Positions 21,461-42,487 of a DNA stretch of 64,000 bases are shown here, in pieces. How positions within the stretch are numbered: the first letter of the stretch is position 1; each line of letters begins with the position of its first letter. The notes beneath the pieces are model-generated. The model saw nothing but the letters and a program-made list of their open reading frames with translations, was not told the origin of the DNA and did no database searches. The position numbers were made by a program, and so were the translations under genes. Origin of the DNA: Hyaloscypha bicolor E (lineage: Eukaryota > Ascomycota > Leotiomycetes > Helotiales > Hyaloscyphaceae); NCBI RefSeq assembly GCF_002865645.1, contig NW_020194628.1, positions 1,302,001 to 1,366,000 of the forward strand, written 5' to 3'.

Positions 21461-21888
21461 TCAGTGTTGGGCTCGCAAGTGCTTCGAGAACACTTCGAGA
21501 GCGTCCCCAATGACTCCATGCAAGTTGTGTGTATAGGCTGTACCATTGTCGGGTGAATCCTGGGTCGAGGACGCGGGGTGGAGGAGACCGAGTTCGACGT
21601 CAGAATCTGGCCCACCGAAGGTTGGTAGGTGGTCATTTCCTGCTGGAGGCGGACATGATGGTTAGAAAGGCCAGAGTTCATAGTATAGACAGGCAAAAAT
21701 TTGAAAACAAATACCTCTCATTGCGTTGTTGTATCTTCTAGTAGCCCATATGGCACCGCCGCCCAAAAGCGTAGCCGTGAGGCCAAACACTACGTTCAGG
21801 ATATCGCTGGTTGCAACTAGTGAAGCGAATAAATTTTAGTCCATGCAATGTAAAGAATTTAACGAATGCCTTGAGAAGTCTTACCCAT
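21461..21888 (-). CDS. Tiny single-TM protein, copy D (SDVExGL tail)
   Basis: The model has exon 1 21888-21885 (ATGG, four coding bases), exon 2 21816-21715 and exon 3 21639-21461, giving 94 residues. Introns have GTAAGA/CACTAG and GTATTT/CAGCAG signals, both phase 1. The N-terminus MVATSD leads straight into one hydrophobic segment (FGLTATLLGGGAIWA) closed by TRRYN, so a single-pass N-out/C-in protein is expected from the positive-inside rule. The tail holds SDVELGLLHPASS and later GVIGDALEVFSKHL. Copy E (24188-24627) matches in all three parts, including the tail. Copies A-C on the plus strand share the exon pattern and the membrane exon but have a different tail. No known family is recognised. 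Homologous splice structure across five copies is the main support. Confidence 0.65.
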
Positions 21889-24187
21889 TGCTCTAAAATT
21901 ATAGAGTTGTGACTGTCAGTCGTGGGGTTTGGACCGTGGGAAAGGATGAGCACCAGGTTGCGGACCGCGGAAGGACGAGGGACGAGCGTCTGGTTTGCGT
22001 TAAGGCGGATTTCGATCACCGTATTACCTGATAAGTTCGCCTACCCTGGCACAGACGCCGCTCTGTTGATCCGCCGCAGGCTCGGCAATGATACCTGAGG
22101 TATCAATACCCCCCTGGTACCACTTGGTATTGGTAGGATCAATCCGTTTTGTTCCAGTATTGATTCTGAGCGATAAATTTGCTAAGTATCTTATGTAGTA
22201 AATTTATATATAGAGGTACTTTCCTTTGCGAGAGGGGTCAGATAGCTAAGGGGTAAGAACACCAAAAAGTGGGACTTTTTTAAAGTCGTTAAAAAAATTA
22301 TAAAAATATCTAAAACCATTAAAGCGATATTCTTAATTATAATGCTATTCTTACTTTTTTAATTAAAGGCAATAAGTATAATAAGAATCGTAGTTAAAGG
22401 GGTTGGACAGGGGGGTCCTTGATTCTCGCTTAGGATCGATTCTGGTATCAATACGGTTCAATACCCGAAATTAGGTATCATTGCCGAGCCTGGGCATCAC
22501 GGCTACGGTCAGCGAGTCGTGCCTTGACGCAACGACATTGATATCCTCTTTCGCGCCTAAATCTTAATTCAAATGTCCGGCTTTCTGCGTTGCGACTCTC
22601 CAACACAGATACTTTGCACCGTATCATCTCATTCCATACACACCAAAAGCTGACAATAACATTTCCATTACCCATACATGACCACCCGATTTCGAGACAC
22701 GCAAGCCACCTTCTGGGCCTTTCCACCCTGCACTGAACCCAATAAGTGCCCCTAGCATTGCTGGAGAATATGCAATGACTTACTGCCGATTGTTTCTTTC
22801 TCATGCAATTTGGTACCTCGCCATGAAGTGCAAGAAGGAGAGTCGAAGCTCGCTCTAGTTGCAGAAGCTGAGCCTCAGGTGCCTCGTTGCCATAACATCT
22901 GGCTATATCCCGCTCTGAACCTCTTTTCGCGATACACCTCTTTTCCATTCTCCCACACGAATGCCTATTATTGAACAGAGGTCACTTTATTAAGATCCTT
23001 TTGGCATATCTTTTTATTCTCTTAATATCTTCGCATTATAAATTCCTTCGCAGAACTCTCTCTGCCTAAAAATCTGAAGGATGTTCTACTATCAAACCAA
23101 CACCCCACTGATTGCGCTGTACTTCGACGACATACATCTAAGTATGCTCTGCCAGCACGCATGGGCCGCCGTAGAATCCAAGAAGATTCACTTGACTCAG
23201 GCAGAGTAGTAGCAGTGCTTTTTTGGCTTGTTTCGGAGAACAGTTTCCAGCTTTCCTCTTTTGCAACCGCTTCCTTATCTTCTTTGGTCTTGTGGGACAC
23301 TTCACTTAGCTCGAACAAGAGGAACTTGAAAGCCTGCTACTGAAAGGGAAACTTGCGCCTCGATAAACAGTTGCAAATAAAGATTGCGAGATCATTTATA
23401 AATGTGTACAAATTTTGGAAGAGAACTTAATTCCTTTAAGTCCAGTCCTGATTCGGGAGTAGTTGATAATGATACCTCGTTTAGGGGACTTCACACTTCA
23501 TCAACGAGCCAGCCCTCGAAGCTGGATTCTGCCTTCTGTACTTGGTGAGCTCAGTTAATTCGTCCTAGACTAGGCGGGAAATCGGGTTTTAGTGCGACAA
23601 GAACAGGTTAATTTGGATTATTGGAATGGCATTGTTAAGTTTTTCATGTGACAGTATTTACCCTCGAAATTTGTACGTCCAACTTCAACCTCGGAGACCT
23701 TCCCACCTCCTCGAAATGGGCCTTTCTAGCGGTCAGCCGTTGGAAGATACTCAGCGTGGTCTGGCTAGCCGAATGCTTCGAGCATTGTATCGAGGACCAG
23801 CGGCGTCGCCTTGGTGCTCCTTGTGAAGTTGTGTCGTCTTATCCAGCGGCGCGGCCCTCCTTAGCTGGACAGGTGCATCGTCCCTTGTTTCTGTTGCCTA
23901 CTGTGCCGAGATCAATGACCTATCATTTTCCACCGAACATCGATTTCGTGGAGCCGGTAACTTGAAGCTGTCACCGAGTACTCGAGTACGGCATATTCGA
24001 GATGAAGCGGCGTCACGCATAGCAGATCTCTTGGGACTTTTTGCAACCTTGCTACTAACAAGACATAAATACACCAGAGCCGTGCAACACTGTCCTCCTA
24101 CTGAACCTCCATCCCAGGGACGTGGAGGTTACCTTACGCAATGCTTCGCCGGTACCACCATCCTTTCCCACACCCATCATTTTGACC
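21889..24187. other. Intergenic between small-TM copies D and E
   Basis: Holds the TIR element at 22077-22492. Frames at 22478-22948 (minus), 23022-23318 (minus) and 23648-23965 (plus) are open for 98-156 codons but show no family features or supporting splice sites; they are left as unassigned. GC content falls sharply inside the element. Confidence 0.45.
22077..22492. mobile_element. MITE-like element with 20-bp perfect TIRs
   Basis: The ends are CAGGCTCGGCAATGATACCT at the left and its exact reverse complement at the right, with further imperfect inverted similarity inward (GGTATCAATAC...GATTCT.AGCG). The 416-bp body is AT-rich, with long A/T runs at 22270-22400, and has no coding capacity. 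No clear target duplication is visible. It is unrelated in its TIR to the element at 5465. Confidence 0.7.
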
Positions 24188-24627
24188 CTACAACAAAGTC
24201 GATATTACCACGAGAGCTTCCCCAAATACTTTCAGCACATTTTGTCTACAAATTTCAGCATCTAGAGCTGGGGTTTGAGTCATGAGGTCCTGGGATTCGT
24301 CTTCGTGCGTGGTAGGAATCGGTGAGGCATTCTCGATGAGACCAAATTCGACATCGGAGACTCGCGCGCATTCTATATATATATGTTAAAAATACGACAG
24401 TTGGAAAGACGAGCCTTTAAAGTAGTGGGATTTGCCAAATGAAAAGACGTACCTGTTGTCTTGTTGTGGTACCTTCGAGCTGCCCAGATTGTAGCCCAAA
24501 TACCTCCCATAGCCAAAACTGCACCTAAGGCGCCCATTATGGTGTTCGTAATGTCGACAGCTCAATAATAGTTAGTAAAGAAAAATAGTGATGAACTTCT
24601 GCAACGGTTACGAAAGAACCTGCCCAT
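24188..24627 (-). CDS. Tiny single-TM protein, copy E (SDVExGL tail)
   Basis: Homology to copy D gives exon 1 24627-24624 (ATGG), exon 2 24560-24453 and exon 3 24372-24188, encoding 98 residues. Exon 2 encodes a hydrophobic helix with GALGAVLAMGGIWAT and then WAARRYHNK. The tail has SDVEFGLIENAS and KVFGEALVVISTLL, matching copy D at both blocks. Intron 2 is standard (GTACGT...ATATAG). Intron 1 would be GC-AG (donor ATGG/GCAGGT, acceptor TTGAG), which is unusual; the GT four bases further on leads to a non-homologous frame. So either a GC donor is used or the start exon has mutated. The conserved downstream exons argue that the protein is or was made. Function unknown. Confidence 0.55.
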
Positions 24628-24715
24628 TGTGATTGATTATTCCAACTGTGTTGTTGTTTGGGAGGAGGAAGACGAGGAAAATTCAGTAATGGTTCCGTAG
24701 GAGGTCTGTAGGCTG

Positions 24716-24781
24716 GTTCAAAGCAGCCAATTAAAGTCCAACAAGGAAGTTCAAAGCAGCCAATTAGAGTCCAACAAGGAA
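24716..24781. repeat. 33-bp direct tandem duplication
   Basis: GTTCAAAGCAGCCAATTA and the following AGTCCAACAAGGAA occur twice back to back (24716-24748 and 24749-24781) with one mismatch. Confidence 0.9.
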
Positions 24782-25111
24782 CCTAGGATGTGCATCGGGA
24801 TGATTGAGCAATGAGTAGCGGGGCCTGGAAACACAGAAAGCTCGCCGCACAGCACAGTGCTGAGATCTGTGAAGCAAAGCGCCGAAGAAGTAAGAGCGTT
24901 TAATTCCAACTCTGCCACGTGACGTTTGCTCTTGGGCCACACTCTACTCTTTCTACACCCCTCTCAAATTCACCAGGGGCCGCATAAATAGGTGCAAATG
25001 CAAAGAGTAAAAGCCGGATTTTCTCTCGTTAAGAGAGTATATCAGGCCCCCCCCCCCCAGTAACGAAGCTGCGCAAGAGAAAGTATTCTTTTAAAAGAGG
25101 ACTTAGTTAGC

Positions 25112-25227
25112 AAAGAGTATTTAATCTTGGGGAGACCCCCCAAAACCCCCCTTTATGGAAAGGAGGCAGTAGGGTAAGGCAAAAGTAGTCTTTAATCTTA
25201 GGGGGAGAAACCCTAAATCCCCCCTTA
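25112..25227. repeat. Imperfect C-rich repeat pair
   Basis: TTTAATCTTGGGGAGACC...CCCCCCTT (from 25120) recurs as TTTAATCTTAGGGGGAGAAACC...CCCCCCTT (from 25192), about 70 nt apart. It may be the remains of an element. Confidence 0.5.
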
Positions 25228-25798
25228 AGACTGCAGCGCCCGGTCAAATAATACTCCGGGTCATGTGATGAGGCTTTTTCACAGTCACGTGAACAATCTG
25301 CCATACCAGCCCCCCACCTCGTGTAAACAAAAGCTTCGTTTTGACAAGTCAAAATCTTGCTTTTAATGAACGACTCCAATATATGGCTCGCTTTTTGACG
25401 TTAACTTCCTAGCTGCAGCATAGAGTTTGGATGATCCACTGAGACAGTCGACGATCACTGGCCCAAGAGCCAGCTTCCAGTTACGCCACCGTGTGAGACG
25501 ATCGAATGAATGGCAAGCTTTGGAGTTACCTGCAGCAGTTGTTTGCGCAAGTCAAAATCTCTCCAGTCAGTCTGTAATCGATGGATTGCGGATCCTGACA
25601 TAGCCATCATAGATGATCCATCAATACTTGATCGGACCCCCACATCTCAGGATGAAGGAAATCTTCACTTCGAAGATAATGAAAGTTCAGGAATTAGGTT
25701 CAAGAAATGATTTCAACCCATCCAGGGTATTATGGGAAGTAAGAAGTTGCTTTCCTGAAGATTCACCTCGAATCGTCCATGCCAGCATCGTGTCCCAG

Positions 25799-26083
25799 TA
25801 CGAAGGCGCCTGGGCGCACCGAATCGAAATCCGTCCATTTTCGCCTAAGGCAAGGAACACCAAAATCTCTAGTTTTTTTAAAATTGCGCATCGTAGCACT
25901 ATCAAGTTCGAATACTTTAAATTAAGCTTTATGTAATAGAAAAGAAGTCAAAGTAACTTTTGTTATGGTTTCGTGGTTCTAAACTTTTAGGGAGTTTTAT
26001 TACGATTTTTTAAAGGTGAGGGAATGATTTTCAAAACTCTCGCTTAGCGAAACGGACGGTTTTCCATTCGGCGCGCCTTCGTA
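25799..26083. mobile_element. MITE-like element flanked by TA
   Basis: The left end TACGAAGGCGCCTGGGCGCACCGAAT and the right end, reverse complemented, TACGAAGGCGCGCCGAAT form an interrupted inverted repeat that continues as GAAA(T)CCGTCC. TA lies at both outer borders. The 285-bp body is AT-rich and non-coding. Confidence 0.65.
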
Positions 26084-26254
26084 AGGCCGCAAGGCTGAGG
26101 ACTGACGAAAGTACCTTCAGGGTGCTGGGTTTGTTATTACACCATTTTCGCGCTTGGCTACTGTTTCTCTTGCTCGGCTAACTATAATTCTCATCCACTT
26201 GTTTGACGTGATGGTTGAGCATGCTAAAGAGGAGAGGCTGTCCTTCACGCACTA

Positions 26255-26886
26255 ATCGTTCGGTGGTTCTCACCTCCAGCCAGCTTAGCACGCCTTGTAA
26301 GTAAGGGATAGCGATACGCACAGAACAGCGATACGCAAATCGCACCAAAATTTGTATAGGCAAATCGGACAGATCTGCATTATAACAACGCCTTAATTTT
26401 TTAGTCTTAAAATTTACTAAGCTAAAGGGCCTACGCCTCGGGATCAATTCCCAACACTTAGACACTGTTTTAATACGTTGCGTTGTGAGAATTCAAAGGG
26501 AGAAAAAGGGCGAATTTTGGGGGGTGCCACCAAAATCTCAGATTTCGTATCGCTATCCCTCACCTGCGAAGGCGACGGGCATTGAAAATCGTCCATTTGC
26601 AGAGTGCGCGCGAGAATACCAAAATTACCTTGTGCGGAAAGTCGCACTAATCCCCAACGCAACGCCCAAAACTTTCTACAAGAGGCTTATACAACAGAAA
26701 AATAGTACGTTAATCTTTTCCAAGAATTTTATAACGATTAAATTTGGGGAGAAATTGCGGGACATTTATAATAGCGCAGCCCCAGGACTTCCCAAATTTT
26801 CGCTTAGTGAATTAGACAAATTTTAATGCCCGCCGCCTTCGTACAAGGCGTGCGAAGCGGGTCGGAGGTGAGAACCACCAAACAAT
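26255..26886. mobile_element. TIR element related to the MITE at 5465
   Basis: The left end ATCGTTCGGTGGTTCTCACC and the right end, reverse complemented, ATTGTTTGGTGGTTCTCACC agree over about 50 bases, including TTAGCACGCCTTGTA versus TTCGCACGCCTTGTA. Inside the left end GCGATACGCAAATCGCACC and CAAAATTTGTATAGG match the subterminal region of the 5465 element. The length is about 632 bp with no transposase. The flanks show no clean TA duplication. It lies 170 bp from the element at 25799. Confidence 0.7.
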
Positions 26887-27333
26887 CACCACAGGTATGC
26901 GGGATTAGTCAGCTCCGAGCTCTAGAGCTCGGACGCGGCTCGACTTTAATCCGACCCATGCCTGGGAAATGTCAACCCACGCCTGTCGATGCAGATCCGA
27001 CCTCGGTTCTTCAAAGCGCGCCCCAACTTTCTTGAGACGATAACACTCATTTCGATCACAAGCTTCATGAATCATCAAAGACCCACCATGCCTCTCGAAC
27101 CACTTTTCAACAAATTACTGCACGGTAAGGTATGAACCACCAGCTAACCTTGCCGCGAGCCGAGGCATCACGTTTCTTTTTGCAACTGCGTTCCGGGTTT
27201 TTTTTTGCTCTAATTGTCGATTTCACACGCCATCGCACGTTTCTCTCTCTCCTCTCTTTTCCTTTCTCTCATAGATTTCTCGTTTCATAGACTGGTTGGT
27301 GGATTTCTCTTCTTTGAGAAACAGGTAGACAAA

Positions 27334-28390
27334 ATGAATGAAAAGGGAAACTTCGCCGCCGTTCGAAAGGACATTGCCAAGCTGCTGCATCAGCCTGAGT
27401 ATGATGATGGCAGCGCAGGGCCGGTTCTGGTTCGCCTTGCCTGGTACGTCTTTCATTTGGGTCTTCACCTTACAATTCCAATTATCAACTTCAGCACCGC
27501 GCCACAGGTACTGACAACATCGCAGGCACTCATCAGGAACATACGACGCCGCAACAGATACAGGCGGTTCCAACGGAGCTGGAATGCGATATGAACACGA
27601 AGGTGGCGACCCCGCGAACGCAGGCCTACAACACGCCCGAGTCTTTCTCGAGCCCGTCAAGGCTGCACACCCATGGATAACCTACGCGGATCTCTGGACA
27701 TTGGCAGGCGTTGTGGCAATCAAGGAGATGGGTGGCCCTTCAATTCCATGGCAAGGAGGGCGAACAGATTTTGTGGATGACAGCAAACTTCCCCCACACG
27801 GACGACTCCCAGATGGCGCAAAGGGCTCAGATCATCTTCGCTGGATATTTTATCGTATGGGGTTCAATGACCAGGAAATTGTGGCATTGTCAGGTGCGCA
27901 TAGTCTAGGGAGATGCCACAGTGATCGGTCTGGCTTTGAAGGGGCGTGGGTAAACAATCCTACGAGGTTTTCTAATCAATACTTCCGGCTTTTGCTTTCA
28001 TTGCAATGGAAGAAGAAGACGTTGAAGAATGGAGTCGAACAGTTCGTCAACTATGATGAAGACTCGGAGACAGAGCTCATGATGCTGCCGACCGACATTG
28101 CTCTCACCCAGGACAGAGAATTTAAGCCATGGGTGGAGCTGTATGCTCGGGACAAAGACAGATTCTTCGATGATTTTTCGAAGGTGTTCGCGAAGTTGGT
28201 TGAATTGGGCATTCAGAGGGACGAGAATGGGGTGGCGACGAATACGGATAATGAGAATGGTGGATATCATGCCGCACCGAAGAAGAAGTCGACGGCAGGA
28301 AGCCCGGCGAAGAGTACAGATGATGATGTTGGTCCGAGTGAGAGTGAGCCTTTGAAGGAGGGGAATAAAGCTTTCAGAGCGAGGCTGTAG
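27334..28390 (+). CDS. Cytochrome c peroxidase-like haem peroxidase
   Basis: Two exons (27334-27443, 27526-28390) encode 324 residues of a class I haem peroxidase, which reduces hydrogen peroxide. The distal site RLAWHSSGTYD is formed exactly across the intron (TG/G making Trp), giving the catalytic Arg, Trp and His. [22 protein letters not shown] follows, then the proximal haem ligand in [12 protein letters not shown], and [15 protein letters not shown]. The start [16 protein letters not shown] matches the short N-terminus of the non-mitochondrial fungal group; upstream in-frame Met codons would add a hydrophobic stretch encoded by the pyrimidine-rich leader and are less likely. Residues after about 280 form a charged Ser/Lys-rich tail ([12 protein letters not shown]) that is not part of the fold. 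The electron donor, cytochrome c or another, cannot be decided from sequence. Confidence 0.92.
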
Positions 28391-28673
28391 AAAAATGTAC
28401 CAATATCAGAGGCTGCGTGAGGTTATTAGACAGACATAGACTAGACTTTAGAGGTAGATCATAGATTGCTTTTTGCCATAGCCCTCGTTCGTTCGAGTCG
28501 CCCAATTCATTCTCGACTTTCTGGTGGAAACAAACAGGCAAGTGCCACCCACGCTCCTTCCCAACTTTTCCGCCAGCCCACAACCTCATTTCTGCAAGTT
28601 CGGGAAACTTTCCATTCATCACGCTCCCTAAACTCCCTTCTTTTTTATCAACCCTCATTCCTATACCCTGAAA

Positions 28674-29928
28674 ATGCGCTTCTTTACCCGCTCGGCAGAT
28701 CTTGAAGCGCAGGCACCGAATCGCATCCGATCAAGGTCCCGCACACGTTCCCAATCAATAGCACAACCAAGCTCACCTCAAACACCACGGCTGCGCTCGC
28801 GCACTCGCTCAGCATCAACAGCTCAGCCTAGACAAGAAATGTCAACCTCGCCACTTCCCTCCGCACCACTCTCAAAAGCTTCAACTACCAAGACAATCGA
28901 GACTCCAATACCTCCGACCCCCGTCTTCTCGAAACCAGCAATTCTATACGACAATCCTCTCCTCGCAACGGAAGGTTTCAAAACTGCTCCCACAAGTCCA
29001 CTTACCAGGGCGCGCCAGACTGCTTCAGAAAAGAAGGAAACATCAATCTTACCAGAAGAGGGTGAAAAGGTTGATGAGAAGAAACAGGCGTTGTTGAACA
29101 AGTACGATCCAGGCGAGATGGTGATTCCCGTCCCGCAGATCAGCGATATGAATCTGCATCGTCGGATGGTGCGGACGTTTTACCTGGATAATTTGTTATG
29201 GGCGACCGCTAGATTACAAAGACATGTGTGGGTGGCGGCGAGTGAAGAGGAGGTGTATAAAGACCGTAGCTCATCCCCCCTTCAAACGCAAAGAGGGAGG
29301 GAAGCTGATCTTGCCAGTATGGACGGCTGAGAGACGGGATAGACTTCACGAGGATTTGCTGCGGTACAGTAAGTTCTTCAAATATCTGGGTGTAGGGGAG
29401 GGGAAGGCTGATCAAGCGCCAGCGCAAGCAGTGAAATCCTTCGAGTACTGGAAAACGAGCATGATGCAAACCGTCGACCTCGTCACGCCTCCGAATTACG
29501 ATACCTACGGCCGCACCCTCGCCATGCTCGAATGCGCATCCCATCATGAATGGGACCCTTCCGCCTTGGCCACGATAAAGTCCATTTCCAACACCCTGTT
29601 CAAAGACCTCGCAGACTTCTCTCGAACCCAAGCTCCCGCCCACCTCCAGCGCGCCGACCGTCTCAACGCCAAATGCCGAAAACGAGGGTTGCTGAATCGT
29701 ATGGCGATGTCGACGTTTGGGGGCCTTACGCTGATTGTGCCAATGTTGATTATGGTGCTGGACCCCAGGAAGCTGGTGTCCGTAGTTACGACGAGCGTTT
29801 TTACGCTAGCTGTTGGGTTGACCTTGGCGATTTGGATGAATGAAGCGGAGAGTAAGGATATGATTGCGGCTACGGCGGCGTATGCGGCTGTTTTGGTGGT
29901 GTTTGTGGGGGCAGGGACAACTGTTTGA
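28674..29928 (+). CDS. DUF6594-type membrane protein with apparent frameshift
   Basis: From ATG 28674 the first 190 residues hold an Arg/Ser-rich disordered start, then a helical part (MNLHRRMVRTFYLDNLLWATARLQRHVWVAAS). The frame then shifts: the continuation that makes sense (TVAHPPFKRKEGGKLILPVW, YSKFFKYL, three C-terminal membrane segments, ending ATAAYAAVLVVFVG) lies one base over. Removing one A from the AAA at 29259-29261 joins them as EEEVYKTVAHPPF. No intron with usual signals does the job. So this is a one-base insertion in an A run: an assembly error, a recent null allele or a pseudogene. The long intact second half favours error or recency. The C-terminal membrane region matches that of the broken gene at 161-1653, so the two are paralogues. 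It lies 284 nt after the peroxidase gene, same strand. Function unknown. Confidence 0.65.
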
Positions 29929-32354: not shown

Positions 32355-34627
32355 ATGTCCGACTTCGATCCCAAAACACCCACATCGCGAACTCACGAAA
32401 GCAACAATGTGCCGCCGCCAGAGTCTTCGTCAGTTGACGGGAGGGTTGCTGCTGCTGCTGCTGCGATGAATGAGCAGAATCGGAGGGGGGATTCAACTAT
32501 TCCAGTGTCATTTCCACTCGCGCAGGCGCCAGACTCCACCTCGATATTCATATCGAACACGACAGCACCGTCGCCCCCCCCAAATCCTTCTGCCAACTCC
32601 TCTCTCCTTACTCCTCTCCATACCGCATCCCGCCTTCCTCCTTTCGATTCCCCGATTCAATACTCGAGCCCTCTGAGCGCGGGGTTGCGGATACAGACCG
32701 ATATTATCCCTGGATATACTGTCACGGAAGCGAGCGCAAATACCACAGGACGAAGCCCGAGTGAGTCAACCAGGATACCTTCGAAGTCTACATCGTTCGG
32801 TTTGGATCGAACACCAAGCATAAAGAACGTCTTCGCGACCAGTGTAGGCAGCAGTTCGAACTTTGGCTCGGCCCCCAACTCTGCCTTATCTTCGCCAATG
32901 CTGAATGCTATGGCAGATGTGACTCCGCTCCCCTCACCGCTTATGACCGGAGATTCCCCCGGCCCTTGGAAGCAACTCACTTCTCGACCAGCCTCACGCG
33001 AACTCATGATCCCCATAACCGCAGACTCGGCCCTCGTTACGGCGAATGGCGAGTCCATATCTGCCGCCATTGCGAACCAGTCGAAACGGAGGGCATACCA
33101 TGGGCTAATGGCGACTCCAAACGAGTCCGGGCTACAGATAAACAAGGAGAAGAACGCAGAAGAACATGGGAGGAACCGCAGCATCAGTGAGTATATACCT
33201 GAAGCTATCCAGGTGCCAAAACCGCGGCAGATCACTGTCTCAGGCTCCCATGCGCCGATTGATGCAACTCCGGACTCAGCTACGGATATGCATATGCGGA
33301 GGGAACCACATTTGGCTGTACAAAGGGGACTGGCTCCGATTCCAACACCACCAACTCCGCCATCGAGTAGGACCGGAGCAGAAAGTAGTGACAGTGACTC
33401 ATCTTTATCTACTGCAAACTTACCCCGACTACACAAAAAGTCTCGACATGAGTACTTCGAGGCGTATACTCCAGGAGACTCCAAGAAGAGGAGATGGCGA
33501 GCCTTGAAACTGTTAGGGCAAGGCACTTTCAGCAAAGTCATGCTGGCAACAAGTCAAGTGCCTGAAGAAGATAACCGGATCGACGAGAATGATGTTTTCA
33601 GGGAACGGATGGATGGGATTCTTACGCCTGTTCAAGAGAGCAGAATCGACAGAAAGAAACTAGTGGCAGTCAAGATCTGTGAGCATGGACCAAAGGGAGG
33701 AGCTTCGGAAGAACGAGTTGAGATGTCACTGAAGCGAGAACTGGAGATCATGAAAACGATACACCATCCTTCACTGGTCCATCTCAAGGCATGGAATATC
33801 GAGGAAACACGTGCTATTTTGGTACTGAGTTATTGTCCTGGCGGAGATCTTTTTCAAGTGGCAAGCGAGCACCGGAATCTGCTTGTTCCCTCACTGCTGA
33901 GGAGGATGTTCTCTGAGTTAGTAGCGGCCGTTCAATATCTGCACGATCGTCATATCGTGCACCGAGACATCAAACTTGAGAGTATGTATTATGGTTGTTT
34001 GAATGTTTACTGCTGATCACTTGAATGCTAGACGTCCTTGTCAACCTCCCACAGCACGAACTGTCCCGTCAGCAGGACTGGATTACATATCCATATTCAA
34101 TCGTCACTCTCACTGATCTGGGTCTTTCCCGACGTGTTGCAGATGACGAAAAACTGACGACGCGCTGTGGATCCGACGATTACGCTGCGCCGGAAGTAAT
34201 TATGGGGCAACCGTACGACGGCAGAGCAACAGACGCCTGGTCACTCGGAGTTCTTCTTTACGCATTACTAGAAAGCAGATTACCGTTCGATCCTAATCCG
34301 GGAATGTCAGAAGGACATAAACAACGAAGTCGCACTTCTCACCGAATAGCGAGAGTGGAATGGCGGTGGATCGAATATGCTGGCGAAGAAGGGGATCACG
34401 AAGGCGATCCTGAGAAGTTCAGCGAACGAGGCCTGGAAGGCGCAATGCTCGTTACCGAAGGACTTCTCAAGCGAGCACGGAGCCGATGGGCTCTCGAGAA
34501 AGTCGCAGAGCAGGAATGGGTTAGCGGAGGTATCAATATTGAAGGCGGAATCAAATTCCGGGAAGAAGATACACCCGAGGAAGTATTTACCTCCGACTCT
34601 GGAGGCGGGATTCAGAGCCCGTTATGA
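32355..34627 (+). CDS. Serine/threonine protein kinase with long disordered N-terminus
   Basis: Exons 32355-33981 and 34032-34627 (intron GTATGT...TGCTAG) give 740 residues. Residues 1-370 are Ser/Pro/Thr-rich with an Ala run from a GCT repeat. The kinase domain begins with WRALKLLGQGTFSKVMLA (Gly loop, about 388), has LVAVKI (ATP Lys), HRDIKLENVLV (catalytic loop, about 536, formed across the intron) and YAAPEVIMG. The DFG motif is read as TDLGLS, so Phe is replaced by Leu; the Asp and Gly are kept and activity is expected. About 60 residues are inserted after VMLATSQ, between beta 2 and the ATP lysine. The pattern recalls the yeast Prr1/Prr2-Npr1 group, but this is a family-level guess. The upstream in-frame codons lack another ATG context better than GTCATGTCC. 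Confidence 0.88.
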
Positions 34628-36622
34628 CAATAACCGAACCTGTTTTGAGGTATTGGATTGGAGACCAGAGATATATATTCAAACCGATTTTTCAGAGGGT
34701 TCCTTAGGGTGATAAGGTAGGGAGTGGTGTTAAATACAGTGATCGATCAGCAACGATTTGGGTTTGGGAAAGAGGGTATTATGATACCTGATGGGATGGG
34801 CGGCGTTCTTCTTTGCAATGGTGCCGGGGTGGGTTTGCTGTTCAGCGAGCGTCTATCCATTCTTTCGTGTTTTTGGGAGAGGAGGCGTGGGAAGAGAAGG
34901 GAAGAGGTGCGGTGTAGCAGAGAGGGTAATGTGTGGATATTGTGTATGATAGGTCTGAGTGAAAAGTGTGAGGAGAAATTAAGGAGTGGGAGTAGATAGA
35001 TAGAGACGAGCAATGGATGCTGTTTATTGCAGTCCTTTGGATCGTTTGGGATGCTTGCACGGGTGAAGCGACCCTTGTGCAAACGGAGAATTCCTTCTCT
35101 TCGGAACCTAGGCACCTGACAATGCAGCGGCATATTGCTTAGTTTAGGCCACCAAGAAATCGAAATGGCCAAAGTTGGCAGGGCTATCGACTCTATTGGC
35201 TCTCTTGCCATGCGCCTATGGGCAATTGAGATCTTCAGTGGCTTTGCACGCTGATTGGATCCCAGCCTTGCGTTCCCGCTTGCAGCTGATAGACAGGGAA
35301 AAGCAGCGTGGACCGTGGACCGTGGACCGTGGACCACTGAATAGTGTCATTTCCAAGAATAAGCTTCTGGGAGGGCGAGTCCCGATCGAGACGCTCAGCT
35401 CAATCTTCGTTCTGTCATCGGATGTTGGGCTGCCAAATTAGCCAATAGCAGTGCAAGCGCACGTCCGCGGGGATTCTACAAGTAGAAGTGAGGCAAAACG
35501 CGGTCCTCCCTAACGTTGTTTGCAAGGACTGCGGGCAAAACACGCGAGCATGTATCTAGATACCATCAACGCCCAGCATATCGATTGCGCCAGACCTCTA
35601 TCCGTAGAGTAGGTCTTGCAGCCAGCCTGCATTGCTGCCTCTTCCAATTGTCCTTATATTTTTGACTCGGGCATTATTGTCATAACGTCTAAGAACAAAT
35701 CATATTACCTTTACTGGTGAAGTTTTAAAGACCCGAGTTGATGCTATCAATGCAGCAGTAGCAATCTGCTATCCGCCTGCATGCGGTACTTGAGGCAAAC
35801 ACCTCCGCACCCTTCCTACGCCACTGGTACTTGCCCCTTGCTTAGCTTGGTGCTGCGATGCAGTGGTGTTCCAAAAAGCCGAGTTGGTTCCTGAGTGGAG
35901 GGTTCTCCCAAATCGATGGCCTATGAAGTTCGTTTTGGCACTTGGCGGCTTCAGTCCCCGGAGAGTGATACCGGGGGAAATCCAGAAACCCCAGTTGCAT
36001 GAGCTCGTCAGATCTCGTCAGCATAGCTTTCCGACGCCACAAGAGTCACCAAACCCCCTTCCAGCGTCACGCCTACCCCACCAAATTTTTTTCGATTTTT
36101 CAAAGTCTTTGGAAAATTCTAAAAACTTTCCAGATTATAGAGAATACTCGAAATATTGTGAATATCGTGTTAATTCTTTGAATTTGTAGCGTTAAGGTCT
36201 CCAAAATCCAAGTTGAGCGGGAAGGGGGTGTGGGCGATTGGTGAGTGACACCTTCTAGTGATGTAACTGCCCGACAACACTACCATCGCAGTCATGAATT
36301 CCAACAGCCACTTCTCGATCGCGCTTTCTGCCCAGCACACTGTGGCCGGGCGTACTCGAGAGGCTAACCCTGACCGTACGCAGTAAACAGCCCCTGTCCA
36401 TCACCGATCACTCCGCTCTCTACTCCGCTCTCCACGCCATGGGAAATTTCGCACCAACTCATAAATATCTCCACTCCCGACCACCAGAAAAAGGGAACAT
36501 TTAGAGCAATGCTTCTTGCTTTCTCCTTCTGCTGTAAACACTCCTCCTCCTCTTATAAATTCTCTCATCCCCCTTTAACGAATATTCGATCATAATCTTT
36601 TGTCCAATCGGCGAATCTACAA
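34628..36622. other. Intergenic, no supported gene
   Basis: Contains a heptamer repeat at 35308. Frames at 34747-35337 (minus) and 35863-36189 (plus) have no recognisable content. TATA-like ATAAATAT near 36460 and a pyrimidine-rich leader from 36500 precede the tiny gene at 36623. Confidence 0.5.
35308..35335. repeat. Heptamer repeat (GTGGACC)4
   Basis: Four perfect tandem GTGGACC units. In the register ACCGTGG it fits the ACCGTGN units of the array at 41390. Confidence 0.9.
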
Positions 36623-36994
36623 ATGCGTTCGTTCCCTGAACGCCTGAGCCTCGTCAAGCGACTTACTATTTTAGTTTCTACCAACGACACGATAGCTTTG
36701 TCCTTCGGCTTCGCCTCAACCTTCATTGCAATTGTCACTGTGTTTGTTACCCGAAGGGCTTACCAGATTGCGAGTTTGTTTCCCAATAATCTCTTTTTTG
36801 TTTGTCAATTTCGCTCAGGTCTGGAAGTCCTCAGTCTGTACACCAAGGCTAACTAGCACTCAGCGACAACAGATCTCGAACGGCGCCCAAATACCCAGCA
36901 AGGAGATGGAATACAAGTGTACGAAGAAATGGTGATGGAGGAGATGGGATTAAGGAGGTGGTCCACATTGAAGAGGTCTGACGTCGGGAGCTGA
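36623..36994 (+). CDS. Tiny single-TM protein, copy A (EEMxLRRW tail)
   Basis: Exon 1 carries only ATGC (36623-36626); intron 36627-36674 (GTTCGT...TTTTAG); exon 2 36675-36773; intron 36774-36863 (GTTTGT, branch GGCTAAC, CACTCAG); exon 3 36864-36994. The product is 77 residues: MLSTND, a hydrophobic segment beginning IALSFGFASTF and closed by VTRRAY, then a soluble tail with QVYEEMVMEEMGLRRWSTLKR. Both introns are phase 1 and exon 2 is exactly 99 nt, as in copy B. A colinear frame from ATG 36623 reads through intron 1 but gives a non-homologous N-terminus and then stops at 36856 without the tail. Five copies of this design occur in the window. Predicted single-pass, tail in the cytosol. No known family recognised. 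Confidence 0.65.
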
Positions 36995-39900
36995 AATCGA
37001 GCTACGTAGGCTCTAAACCTTCATATCAAACGCAATATTCATTATTTGGTGTAGTTCTAAATTCTTTGTACTGGAGAATCTCATCGTATTAGGGTGAAGT
37101 TCAACCCCACTGGATGCATCTACGAACGCTGCTCTTTCATAAAAGCCGCATTGCCTCGTTTAACTATGTCACCGTCTAGACTTTTTGCTTCGGTCACCTC
37201 AGGCTCAATTGGTTTAACTTATCAAGGGTGGGAGGCTCGATCTCAGAGATACACCACCCTGTTCATTGACTAATAGTCGAGCAAAAATTTAACCCCTGAT
37301 GATCGACTTATCACCTCACTTGTTAAATCTCAGTTGCCTCGGTCAAGCATATTCAGACCCAGCTACCATGACCAGAGATTGTATCCTCCAAAGCCATTCC
37401 AAATTTCTATCTACAAACGGCGGTCGACCTATGGAACAGGCTTCTCCTCGACAGGCGCACGTTAGTCGTTAGGCTGGGGTCGCGGCCGAGTCCTATTTCT
37501 GTTTGACTTCGGCGAGCTGCGGCTAAGGCAACCCACCACCTCGTGCTGGGCATGGAGGAAGCGGAGGACGAGAGGCAGCCGGCACTTGGTGGATGGGGCT
37601 TCAGTTCGAATGCAGAGGGTTCTATGGATTTTAAAAGTCCAACCAGAGAAGGGCAAAGAAACGCCCACGCCAGCCGATGCCTCATGATTTGGGTTCTCTC
37701 ACTACGCTTCATCGGCCGTGTCTGTCGACCAACTCTCCTCCTCCTACCATGGCCGGATGCAAAGAAAATATGAAGAAATTTACCCCCAGCCTCAGCCCTC
37801 CTTTACCCAAGCATCTAATCCAGCCTTGTGGCGAACCTTGGCGAGACAACGCTTTGAAGCCGCAGCCCCACAGATTCTATTTCTTTTGACATTCGGATGT
37901 GTTCCTCCGAAGTTGCCGCGCTGTGAGGCTTTCGAGGAAGCACGTGTGGCTCCTGAACCGGTCAGCTGGCTCAGTTGGCCCAGGAGCTCGAGCCTCAAGG
38001 CAGTCAGAGACAGTATGTGCGGGATGTTACTCACCAAAAAGAAGTTTAGGGCTTCTGGGACACGACTGTGGCGGAATACCAATCGCCCGGCAAATAGATA
38101 AGCTTCAGCATTAGGTGCATCATGGTTTAAGCCTCAGCGGTGACTTCCCAGAGTGGCAATGTGAGGGATTTGTGTTTAGTACCTGCAGGGTGGTACGAAG
38201 TTAACTGATTCCTTGAAGCTGCCTCATCGGTGAAGTTGGTCGCTTCCCGTGAAATTGCCTCATGGTTTAATTGGTTCCTCCGAGGTCGCCTTACTAGTAA
38301 AATTACTTGATTCCTCTGATGTTGCCTTATAAATTAATCGACTTCTCTAAAGCTGCCTCATAAATTACTCGGTTCTCCTAAGGTTGCGTCATTGGCTACC
38401 CTCACTTTTAACGACTTCTGGAAACCCCGATTCGACTACCACCACGAACTAAGTCATTACGTTCAGCTTCGCATACCATTACTAGCCATTTCAAATTGGC
38501 GAGATGTGAATCAGACCGATTGAAGAGCGTTCCGAGAAAGGATTCTTGAACCAAGGGAGAAGCATGAACTGAGATGGATGGACAGTGTATACCAGTCAAT
38601 GGGGAATGGAAAGAGTCCATCCTACCTTGCAGGAGAGCTTTGCCAATTACTTCACACGAGTTATTCTAAGCCTTCAACGTCGACATGTGTCAGATATGGC
38701 TTAATTACTTGGAGGAAATTATAAAGATAGAGTGCTAAGTAAGTGTACCAATTTCTCTAGGTATCTGTAGGGCTGGAGTTGACGTGGAGTAGGTGAGGTA
38801 ATATCAGGCAGGTAACCAGGCCCGCCAGCAAGTCCGAGTCTTAGCCTTGCCTGCGCCACCAAAGATTAGAGTGTAATCTTGCTCTCTTGATCAGAAATTG
38901 ATCGATAGCTTACCACCTGCTTGACGTCCTTGTGGCGTTCTCTGGAAAATTGGATGCATCTGCCTTGTCCTCCTTGTAGTGTTGTGGCCTTGACACTCTG
39001 AGGGACAGCAACGCCTGGTTCAGATGAAGTGAGTGAGGGAAAGGGCACTGTTCCTCGAAGCGTCGAATTCAGGCGAATTTGATAAAGTCTTCCCTCCCGC
39101 CGTGCTGAAACCACACCATTGCACCTGCAGTGCGGTACACCATCTCTATAGCTATTAAATAGAAACAACCTTGGAGATGGGGCCGTCGATAGTGGAGCAT
39201 AGCAAAAGGCCCAAAGAGGGCTGCAAGGGTTGCTCTGCAGCGCAGCATGCGCATCCCCAATTTGCCGGGTCACTCAATATCACGGCGCCCGAGAGCGACT
39301 TCTTGTCACTCGTCCGCTTAATGCCTCGAGCCAACGTGGCAGTAGGTGGGATGTCTCATCAGGGTGACTGAGTCGGCATCGTCGGCGCTGAAGGATTTTG
39401 ATTCGCTTCCTCCCTCCCGTGTTCCCTCAGTCCCGCGTAGCCAGGGATGCAAGCAAGCAAGCAAACGGTGCGCCTGCCCTCGGCCTTCGCATTCTCCCTC
39501 CCCATTAGAAGAAGTAGTACCTTCCCTGCACCCCTGCCCTCGCGCGGGCTTTCTCCATCTTCTCTCATTGTCTCGAGTACTCTCATTCGCCTGGCATGCC
39601 ACATTTCAAAGTCGCTGGCAAGGATCTGGAGTGGGAAAGAGTGGCACCGCCTATCATCTGCATCAGCCGTCACAACTTCCATTACAACCGGAGTTTTCAT
39701 GCACACCTCCATCTTCTCCATGGCCTTGCCTCTTTTTACTTGCATACCTTCAACCTTCATTGATTCTCTTCCTCCCACGCTCACGCCCACCTGAAGCGAC
39801 GCCTGCAATAATCGTCCAAAGTTTTCTGATCTACTCCCTGGTTTGGCATGCGATATAAGACAACCCGAGCCCCAACCAAGATTCTTAGAATTATTTCAGA

Positions 39901-40124
39901 TATAAATTCTAACCAGCCCTTTTCCATTCTTCCGTCTATTCTTGAGGTTCTTTGGGCTTCGTTTATTTTTCAAATCACGCTCAAACCCCACAGGCCCCTA
40001 CAACTCGAATTCAAATCGTGGTCACTCACAGCCTTGCTGCACGAGAAACATCAATCTGCCCAAGCAACAATTCCCTGCGTGCACCACATTTCACCATAGA
40101 AAAATATTCAATTAGCCAACTCCA
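36995..40124. other. Intergenic with a minisatellite
   Basis: A 3.1-kb region without a credible gene. It holds a 31-36-bp minisatellite at 38207-38402. The 39360-39840 stretch is pyrimidine-rich on the plus strand and open in several phases, but no frame has family content; it lies upstream of the tiny gene at 40125 and may be its promoter and leader. Confidence 0.5.
38207..38402. repeat. Minisatellite, six units of 31-36 bp
   Basis: Six consecutive units start GATTCC, GCTTCC, GGTTCC, GATTCC, GACTTC and GGTTCT, and each continues as a variant of TTGAAGCTGCCTCAT then a T/A-rich end (ATTAATC, ATTACTC). Units differ by 20-35 percent. Confidence 0.7.
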
Positions 40125-40491
40125 ATGCGTGAGTTTTACTTTAATTATTCGCTCATCGTTCTTCATAATCTGACGTTTATTCCACAGTGTCAACCAGTGA
40201 TTGGTTAGCCTTGTCCTTTGGCCTGACTGCTACCGTGCTTGGGATCGTCACAATCGTCGTAACCCGCAGAAATCAAGCTGCTCGAAGTAAGTGCAACAAA
40301 GTGCACTGGATAAGAGCCTAAGAGGAATTAGACTGACGCCTTTGTCTATAGATAACGGTCAACGGGTCCAGCACAATAACTCCGCGTGTGCTCAGCATCC
40401 GCAGGTTGTGGTGGTAGAGGAGATGCATCTGCGAAAATGGAGATCAACAATTGGGAATCGATGGGAGAACGGGCACGCACAACTTGTGTAG
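40125..40491 (+). CDS. Tiny single-TM protein, copy B (EEMxLRRW tail)
   Basis: This copy has the cleanest splice signals. Exon 1 coding part ATGC (40125-40128); intron 40129-40187 (GTGAGT, branch ATCTGAC, CCACAG); exon 2 40188-40286 (99 nt); intron 40287-40351 (GTAAGT, branch GACTGAC, TATAG); exon 3 40352-40491. The product is 80 residues: MLSTSDWLALSFG, hydrophobic through TATVLGIVTIVV, stop-transfer TRRNQ, then a tail with HPQVVVVEEMHLRKWRST. Both introns are phase 1. The tail blocks HPQ-x-x-V and VEEM-x-L-R-[KR]-W also occur in copy C. A short (GAT)n run follows at about 40530. No signal of a known family; I would expect a small membrane protein with a cytosolic tail. Confidence 0.7.
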
Positions 40492-42159
40492 TGAATTGTA
40501 TGCTGCGTGAGGGGTGACCTTGGGGTTTGATGATGATGATGATGATGATGATTTACGTCCGGCGGGGTATTATTGAAACTGGCTACCTCCTGTGACCTCC
40601 CATGGGGTATGGGGACGTGCTAAGCTATGGATTTATTGTACAAAAGTGCAACCGTAGAAAGCATTTCTAGTATGAGCGAACGTGCCGTGAGGCTTGTGAC
40701 TGCCCACCTCCCCGGCCGTTTGGGGTGGTAGCAGGTTACATGTAAGATGGAAGCCTTCAAGAGTTGCTCGATAGAGCGCGAAAGTGTGTGGCCGAAAGGC
40801 CCGGTTCAGAGCTGAGATGAGACCTTGGGGTTTGAATGTATGGTAGACTCATTTGACGTAATGCTGCTTCGTATCCTAGCAATTCATGTAAAAGTATTCC
40901 CCCATGCTCTCTGAAGTGGGAACGAATGAAATGGGGATACTTTACGCGTCTTGCATCCATAACGGGACAGGTTTGACAACGGGAAAGAGTGATTAAATTC
41001 GGGCTTGCTGTTGGGCGACAGAGGTTACAGCCTGCGGACACAAGTCCTTGTTTTTAGCGATGTTTTCAGGCATCACAAAACCAAAGTCGCCCACTTCACT
41101 TCACAACTACAGATTGAAACCCCGTATAGTTCAAGCGCACACAACGAAAAAGGATAGATTGAGTTTAAAATGCCTTTAAACCCAAAAATGAATATAAAAT
41201 GAAAGCGTCCAAAATAGTTATGGGGCTCGTTTCTCAGCGAAATGCACTAAAAACATGGACTTATGTCTGCAGGCTCGTTACACCGCTAGCTGCAACTTGC
41301 CATGGCTTACGATGAGTATATCTCATTCTTTTACGATGCAAGCCCCGGACTCCGAGCAGGGCGTCACAACCCTCGGTGCCAGCACGAAAACCATAAACCA
41401 ACACCTAAACCATAAACCAAAACCTGAACCATAAACCATAAACCAAAACCTAAACCATAAACCATAAACCGTGAACCGTGAACCGTGAACCGTGCACCGT
41501 GCACCGTGCACCATGCACCATGAACCATGAACCATGAACCATGAACGCGCTGCACATCTCGTCTCCAATTTGCTGGAAATGTTTGCGGGCATTTCGTGAG
41601 TTGTATTGGCGGAGCTGCTGTCGAATTGAGGCGCCATGCGAGCCATTGACTCGTTAGGCCGGGTTGAAATGTGAATCTGCCCCAAGGCCGCTCTGCTGGA
41701 AGCAAGATTGGCCGACCACGACGACAGCAGGCGCAGGCGAGAGGTGTGCAATCTGGGAACGGCACAGCTAGGCACCTACCAGTTGTGGAAGACGACAAGC
41801 GAGTAAGCACGAGGTGGCTAGAAGTACATGGGGCAGAGCGTGAACAACTCGTACACATTAGGGTGCACACCTCAGCGTCTGCCTTTGGCGTTCTGTACCC
41901 ATCGTGATTGGCTAGCACGGAAATGTATCTGCAGCTATGAGTAAAGAGGTCAACCGAGCATGAGGCATGCAAATGACCCGCATACTGCACCCCCAACGCA
42001 AACTTTGATCCATACCACCATCGGGCGTGACAACGACTTCGACCTTGCAGCAAACAAAAGTTTCAACTGCTCCCAGAAGCTCACATTATTCCCCAAGAAA
42101 CAAGTTAAATTCCTCACTGACTTAATTTCAAATTTGATCGACATCGATCATCAAGCAAA
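40492..42159. other. Intergenic with heptamer array
   Basis: No supported gene. The heptamer array at 41390-41546 gives long open frames on the minus strand (GGTTCATGGTTTATG repeats read as MVHGSW/FMVHG), which are repeat artefacts. The 250 nt before 42160 are the probable promoter and leader of copy C. Confidence 0.5.
41390..41546. repeat. Heptamer minisatellite with graded unit change
   Basis: About 20 tandem 7-bp units, sometimes with a 12-bp variant. Reading rightwards the unit changes in blocks: ACCATAA, then ACCGTGA (3), ACCGTGC (3), ACCATGC (1), ACCATGA (4). Confidence 0.9.
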
Positions 42160-42487
42160 ATGCGTAAGTCACTGTCCACCTCCGGAAAGCCAACTCTAAC
42201 TGGAGCCCTCTAGTCACAACGGGTGACACCCTAGCCTTGTCCTTCGGCCTCATTTCAACCCTCCTAGCAATCCTCACGGTAGTAGTCACTCGAATCAACA
42301 CCCTGCTCGAGGTTCGTCTCCCTCCCAACTCGCTCTTCATACACTAGTGTGAACGAATGCTGATACAATTTTAGTTCAATGCGAGCCCCAATACATCGAC
42401 TCTGTCGTCGCCCACCCACAAGACATGGTGTTGGAGGAGATGCGCTTGCGTCGATGGTCGAGTATGAGAAGGGGTAATACAGACTGA
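42160..42487 (+). CDS. Tiny single-TM protein, copy C (EEMxLRRW tail)
   Basis: Exon 1 coding part ATGC (42160-42163); intron 42164-42213 (GTAAGT, branch CTCTAAC, CTCTAG); exon 2 from 42214; exon 3 42375-42487. The membrane part TGDTLALSFGLISTLL and the tail HPQDMVLEEMRLRRWSSM match copies A and B. The second donor is odd. The best site (GAG/GTTCGT, exon end 42311) makes exon 2 one base shorter than in A and B and puts exon 3 in another frame, ending in CVDGRV. A weak donor four bases on (GTTC/GTCTCC, exon end 42315) restores the conserved tail and gives 72 residues. So this copy either uses a poor donor, makes an altered tail, or is decaying. Its closest relative in the window is copy B. Confidence 0.55.

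Follow-up and report, generated by a model that had tools for sequence, protein, structure and literature searches.

A local cluster of small genes for predicted single-helix membrane proteins, with an intron next to the start codon, in Hyaloscypha bicolor

A stretch of 64,000 nucleotides from the genome of Hyaloscypha bicolor E (contig NW_020194628.1, here C51, positions 1302001-1366000; the whole stretch is called the window below) contains five small loci that resemble one another in exon plan. These loci and their relatives in the rest of the genome (82.04 Mb in 76 contigs) are the subject of this work. Loci A and B lie on the minus strand and loci C, D and E on the plus strand of the window; a sixth locus, F, was identified on contig C54 and a distant relative, G, on contig C56. 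A previous reading, made from the sequence only, had proposed that the five loci can be spliced into proteins of 72-98 residues. A three-exon model with an open product indeed exists at every one of them (A 94, B 98, C 77, D 80 and E 72 residues), the N-termini being MVATSD, MAVDIT, MLSTND, MLSTSD and MLTTGD, respectively. Splice combinations were enumerated at the five loci with YAG acceptors required; the model of B falls outside this enumeration and was built by hand. Because many splice pairs leave the frame open, an open product says little by itself, and the models were chosen because the loci agree with one another. The family had also been called dispersed, a word that does not fit five loci within 21 kb plus one elsewhere.

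On the minus strand, locus A starts with the coding part ATGG (21885..21888), followed by an intron with canonical donor and acceptor (21817-21884, GTAAGA...CACTAG, 68 nt). Exon 2 (21715..21816, 102 nt) encodes V-A-T-S-D, a membrane helix and A-T-R-R. Intron 2 (21640-21714) was ended at CAGCAG, the use of CTCCAG three bases earlier giving one extra residue, and exon 3 (21461..21639, stop codon at 21461-21463) encodes a tail with SDVELGLL and V-I-G-D-A-L-x-V-F-S. At locus B, also on the minus strand, the putative coding part of exon 1 (ATGG, 24624..24627) is doubtful; intron 1 (24561-24623) would have to run from the GC donor GCAGGT to the acceptor TTGAG, and contains the branch motif CTAAC. 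Exon 2 of B (24453..24560, 108 nt) encodes a membrane helix closed by A-A-R-R, and after intron 2 (24373-24452) exon 3 (24188..24372) encodes a tail with SDVEFGLI and V-F-G-E-A-L-x-V-I-S. B could alternatively start at an in-frame ATG that lies within exon 2 (24535-24537). Since V-D-I-x-N of B resembles S-D-I-L-N of A upstream of this internal ATG, comparison of the two loci suggests that the first intron of B is ancestral.

The remaining three loci are read from the plus strand and all start with ATGC. In C, this coding part (36623..36626) is followed by intron 1 (36627-36674, GTTCGT...TTTTAG, 48 nt), exon 2 (36675..36773, 99 nt; L-S-T-N-D, helix and T-R-R), intron 2 (36774-36863, GTTTGT...ACTCAG) and exon 3 (36864..36994), whose tail contains V-M-E-E-M-G-L-R-R-W-S. 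D consists of exon 1 (40125..40128), intron 1 (40129-40187, GTGAGT...CCACAG, branch CTGAC), exon 2 (40188..40286, 99 nt; L-S-T-S-D, helix and T-R-R), intron 2 (40287-40351, GTAAGT...CTATAG, branch CTGAC) and exon 3 (40352..40491) with V-V-E-E-M-H-L-R-K-W. In E, exon 1 (42160..42163) and intron 1 (42164-42213, GTAAGT...CTCTAG, branch CTAAC) precede exon 2 (42214..42315, 102 nt; L-T-T-G-D, helix and T-R-I), intron 2 (42316-42374, donor GTCTCC, acceptor TTTTAG) and exon 3 (42375..42487) with V-L-E-E-M-R-L-R-R-W-S. The supposition that the true ATG of these genes never opens a reading frame is false for C: its first intron is free of stop codons, and if it is retained, the same ATG opens a 77-residue frame through the helix. 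Such retention adds 16 residues, basic in character, ahead of the helix, an extension that could change the topology of the product.

Both introns are of phase 1 in the models of all six loci A-F (the first intron of B being doubtful), and the helix exon is thus enclosed by phase-1 introns as proposed. Among the 12 introns, 11 have a GT donor and 11 a YAG acceptor, and in 10 a YTRAY branch motif begins 14-26 nt before the end of the intron. Other elements of the proposed plan apply to a part of the loci. An exon 1 of ATG plus one base holds for A, C, D and E; B can be made to fit only by accepting GC as donor and GAG as acceptor, and it also lacks the [ST]-T-x-D expected ahead of the helix. 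The closing TRR is present in A, C and D, being ARR in B and TRI in E. All five loci encode one membrane helix in exon 2, although the helix exon of B clearly resembles that of A only.

The arrangement ATGN|GT lies 45-75 nt upstream of 64 out of 3203 acceptor-like YAG sites on both strands of the window. If a good donor is required, by a rule defined after the donors of the family were known, the number falls to 8 of 3203, and seven of these eight arrangements belong to A, C, D and E, if a second YAG that follows one ATG is counted as well. Outside the five loci, ATGN|GT is found upstream of 57 of 3094 acceptor-like sites (1.8%), with a good donor in a single case. The intron interrupts codon 2 in phase 1, after ATG and one base, at A, C, D, E and F. 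The four bases are the coding portion of the first exon only; a real exon would include the 5´ leader, and so no problem of micro-exon recognition arises. The novelty claimed for this structure has to be reduced. According to Nielsen and Wernersson (2006, PMC1626468), vertebrates, arthropods, fungi and plants have genes for relatively short proteins with an intron at the start codon, the peak being at phase 0, between the first two codons. The proteins of their class are described as lysine-rich, conserved and enriched for ribosomal proteins, whereas the genes described here have the intron in phase 1 inside codon 2 and encode membrane proteins with 0-2 lysines in each of the six. The start structure of the family thus resembles the class portrayed there and falls outside it. 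It is an uncommon gene structure with precedent, and what we describe is a modest gene family, no new kind of system.

Exon 2 measures 99-108 nt at A-E and encodes one hydrophobic helix, the best 19-residue mean hydropathy being 1.66-2.49. In the six proteins A-F the best 19-mer (1.66-2.64) falls within residues 7-28, and a second stretch never exceeds 1.07. Since membrane helices in general resemble each other somewhat, likeness of the helix exons was judged against 222 unrelated hydrophobic segments, taken from the window and 90 kb of other DNA of the same genome; in addition, pairwise exon and tail scores were compared with 2000 shuffles. Eight of the ten exon-2 pairs formed by A, C, D, E and F outscore all 222 segments. 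For the other two, A-C and A-E, the score is reached by one of the 222 segments from the side of A and by none from the other side. A scan of the window with a helix profile in six frames gave clear matches at A, C, D and E; a further stretch at 29666-29725 (7.0 bits) was rejected as an additional copy and is regarded as unrelated. The helix exon of B matches that of A with a score of 64 (0/2000 shuffles, 0/222 segments) and is weakly alike those of F (49/2000 shuffles; 4 and 13 of 222) and G (11/2000 shuffles; 1 and 0 of 222).

The loci, each with 1.5-kb flanks, were also compared at the nucleotide level. With blastn, C and E matched in exon 2 and in the tail motif, D and E in exon 2; no C-D match appeared, nor any A-B match beyond the overlap of the neighbouring stretches, and the remaining matches span 14-23 bases with E-values of 0.06 or worse. 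The introns and flanks of the loci are therefore without detectable likeness. Over the ten exon-2 pairs, differences at codon positions 1, 2 and 3 number 114, 56 and 186, and for nine pairs random placement of the same changes matched the observed amino acid identity in only 0-19 of 5000 trials; for A-C it did so in 522 of 5000. Substitutions favour third codon positions, and the helix exon is therefore kept as a protein sequence. This pattern, together with locus F, bears out the proposal of a protein-coding family. It speaks at the same time against the view that the loci are decaying or non-coding gene-like remnants. Although B requires two non-consensus splice sites and the second donor of E is weak, as such a view would have it, the spliced frame is open in all six models (weak by itself) and splice and branch signals are present, and we consider remnants very improbable.

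A lack of similar loci elsewhere with the same ATGN and intron structure had been named beforehand as a finding that would refute the proposal; when the same genome was searched, such a locus came to light. A search with protein D returned its own two exons, E, C and one new site, C54:391406-391489 (E-value 0.026, 61% identity over 28 residues). This site, locus F, was located by exon-2 protein similarity alone, and the structure upstream of it played no part in the search. Nevertheless, ATGC|GTTCGT is found there, followed by a 62-nt intron with the branch motif CTGAC and an exon coding for LSTGD and the helix; a second intron (GTAAGT...ACTAG) and a tail of 30 residues complete the model. A sugar transporter is encoded nearby. 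In a blastp comparison of the open frames around F with the window, nothing was found at 1e-3; low-complexity masking was active, and since the helix exon of F itself was also missed, this comparison is poorly suited to detecting short matches.

When proteins of the family or of the helix were used as queries, the best-scoring candidates included no further sites besides G and one rejected place, so that six known members are a lower bound. The rejected place, L010 on C22, reaches 2.6 bits with the helix profile and has an in-frame stop. Another stretch resembling the helix (L056:9777, scoring 45 with A) was also dismissed, as the 219-residue open frame that contains it has further hydrophobic stretches. 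Apart from L010, G is the best match of protein A outside A-F (C56:395056-395154). Its E-values are weak by themselves (0.23 with the whole protein, 0.033 with the exon, 0.047 in the reciprocal search). The exon of G aligns with that of A at a score of 71 (0/2000 shuffles, 0/222 unrelated helices), and in blastp the open frames match each other with an E-value of 1.4e-4. The alignable helix exon occupies C56:395038-395157; G differs from the family in an in-frame S/T/P-rich stretch ahead of the helix, a putative exon 1 of 19 nt and an unalignable tail.

A second line of evidence on G comes from a neighbouring gene. An ankyrin-repeat gene of the window (51520-53712, plus strand) has its best genome-wide relative at C56:397807-399036 (plus strand), 2.7 kb from the G match. 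The chance of falling within 10 kb of this relative is about 20 kb/82 Mb, or 0.02%, and rises to about 0.2% when each of the nine ankyrin places outside the window is counted. Because of the exon score and this independent closeness to the ankyrin paralogue, G is probably a real relative, left by an old duplication of a neighbouring pair. Pairing with ankyrin genes as a general rule was rejected: among the six of the nine places that were examined with their flanks (C55, C33 and C24 were left out), only C56:397807 has a helix-exon relative nearby. The places on C62, C45, C49 and C23 and at C56:175866 yielded no helix-exon relative above threshold in 10-kb stretches, a 4.5-bit stretch at the C62 place remaining below it. 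A large duplicated block around G is likewise unsupported, as 20 kb more of sequence gave one weak match to the window (E-value 0.005).

The tails behave differently from the helix exon. As had been proposed, two types are found in the window, one shared by A and B (S-D-V-E-[LF]-G-L plus an amphipathic end) and the other by C, D and E (V-x-E-E-M-x-L-R-[RK]-W), and for each of the pairs A-B, C-D, C-E and D-E none of 2000 shuffles reached the score. The remaining 17 of the 21 tail pairs, G included, are unconvincing, the lowest being A-F with 84/2000 shuffles. By sequence comparison, the tails of the six members are thus split into mutually unalignable classes, A/B, C/D/E and F alone. When the C/D/E tail pattern was searched for in the genome with three mismatches allowed, C, D and E were recovered without mismatch, together with one further site with three (L026 on C46), which was rejected as a chance match with 6.5 bits in the tail profile; a reversed control pattern gave none.

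Two explanations of this contrast have to be weighed. In the first, a single ancestral gene was duplicated locally and diverged in the ordinary way, the anchor being strongly and the tails weakly constrained. The location of five loci within 21 kb, the alignable tails inside A/B and inside C/D/E and the protein-level constraint on the anchor all agree with it, and we regard it as reasonably likely; that the cluster itself has grown by local duplication is probable. What it accommodates less easily is the tail of F, and the tails of A and D when compared with each other, which lack detectable similarity though the anchors of D and F, and of A and D, resemble each other about as closely as those of C, D and E do. 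In the second explanation, the phase-1/phase-1 helix exon (or the tail exon) was swapped between genes, and the anchor now stands on unrelated tails. Exon-2 identity, counted over 28 residues, is indeed similar for pairs with a common tail (C-D 17, C-E 18, D-E 18) and for pairs without one (D-F 18, A-D 16, E-F 16, C-F 15), while the tail scores of the former (45, 68 and 64) are clearly separated from those of the latter (16, 23, 13 and 20, all within shuffles). Tails are either clearly related or unalignable, the C/D/E tail profile lists nothing in the 10 kb around F, and the intron phases permit swapping. On the other hand, 15-21 of the 28 codons in each pair differ in their third position, which is near saturation, so that exon-2 identity may represent a floor set by constraint, unable to date the splits. 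Fast divergence of tails would give the same pattern, A-C and A-E share just 8 and 11 of 28 residues, and a donor gene for the tails was not found.

Symmetrical shuffled exons between phase-1 introns are known mainly from metazoan extracellular domains, and exon shuffling in fungi is usually thought rare. The helix exon of the present family resembles the phase 1-1 modules of exon shuffling (PMC8001218) in lying between two phase-1 introns, and differs from them in that a membrane helix takes the place of an extracellular domain. On balance, exchange seems rather unlikely to us. A bolder version of it, according to which the helix exon behind its start-codon intron would be a reusable anchor cassette, any tail exon landing behind it becoming a membrane-tethered micro-protein, we hold to be unlikely.

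The distribution of charge bears on how the proteins would be placed in the membrane. The N-terminus carries a charge of -1 in all six proteins, and the 15 residues behind the helix carry +1 to +4 in five of them. Since there is one helix, an acidic N-terminus throughout and positive charge behind the helix in five of six, insertion with the N-terminus outside and the C-terminus inside is the most likely topology predicted from these sequences. Small single-pass membrane proteins of this orientation form a general class, Type III or reverse signal-anchor proteins. The family is like them in its short N-terminus, one helix and soluble C-terminal tail, and the positive-inside pattern fits all members except E. 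The same features can be set against the idea that a signal peptide is cleaved off here and that the tails are small secreted proteins. The hydrophobic stretch starts after 6-9 residues, as it would in a signal peptide, and secreted proteins of fungi are commonly encoded by small genes in multiple copies. However, the acidic N-terminus in six of six, the basic residues behind the helix in five of six, the T-R or R-R found there in A-E and the scarcity of cysteines (0-2 per tail) all point the other way, and we find a signal peptide improbable. Within the helix, the conserved columns D6, G13, T17, [GA]20 and T27 largely share one face, next to which the invariant F12 is placed. The conservation moment was reached by 168 of 20000 permutations over residues 6-27, which suggests that a packing face may be present.

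We therefore favour, as fairly probable, a small protein-coding family of single-pass membrane proteins of 65-98 residues, clustered in the window, whose products would be membrane-anchored adaptor or regulator micro-proteins. That a locally clustered family of genes for one-helix micro-proteins, with an intron close to the start codon, is real is in itself very probable. If the genes are expressed, a leader exon would supply the start codon and the entire anchor would be carried by one phase-1/phase-1 exon (with doubt in the case of B). The N-terminus, which is acidic, very short and marked by x-[ST]-T-x-D, would be exposed outside, a helix of about 20 residues would cross the membrane and the basic T-R-R would remain on the cytosolic side. 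One face of the helix may pack against another copy of the same protein or against a partner. The cytosolic tail would then provide specificity, through E-E-M-x-L-R-[RK]-W in C, D and E, through S-D-V-E-[LF]-G-L and the amphipathic end in A and B, and through a different tail in F.

Several observations weigh against this interpretation. The helix exon of B shows no excess over the 222 unrelated helices when compared with C, D and E, and its 5.1 bits with the helix profile are fewer than those of the non-family stretch at 29666-29725. The first intron of B is non-canonical at both ends, the first introns of A and C are without a YTRAY motif and the second donor of E is weak. The charge behind the helix of E is -1, and the helix-face signal becomes marginal over residues 7-26 (768/20000). 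In the collections searched, no match to a described family was obtained: a Pfam scan of A-E gave nothing near the cut-off, a PDB search with a profile of A-E no chain at an E-value of 1 or less, and among the three proteins scanned against NCBIfam, a collection made for prokaryotes, D and F remained far below the cut-off and A gave none. Since none of the three offered a usable match, we infer the adaptor role from the anatomy of the proteins alone. In viral and prokaryotic collections no relative of D was confirmed among 16 and 89 pattern matches, respectively. Literature on such gene structures, such families and exon shuffling, judged by title and the start of the abstract, contained no description of the family, which is weak evidence of absence.

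As to the surroundings of the loci, a degenerate run of CCATAAACC / CCATGAACC / CCGTGAACC units extends over 41390-41545, about 0.6 kb upstream of E. Beyond E, the nearest family-matched gene among the frames scanned is represented by two open frames on the minus strand (43821-47579) with matches to ubiquitin carboxyl-terminal hydrolase, a DUSP domain being found in 45069-47579. An open frame at 29224-29928 on the plus strand matches DUF6594 (PF20237), and the overlapping frame 28674-29330 gave no match in the Pfam scan.

If expressed, the clustered genes would encode membrane micro-proteins with the start codon on one exon and the body on others, an arrangement that makes them easy to mis-annotate. 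Should the helix exon turn out to be a reusable cassette, the family would be united by its anchor and not by function, and would easily be overlooked by gene finders. With its conserved anchor set against unalignable tails, the family offers a small case in which module exchange in fungi can be put to the test.

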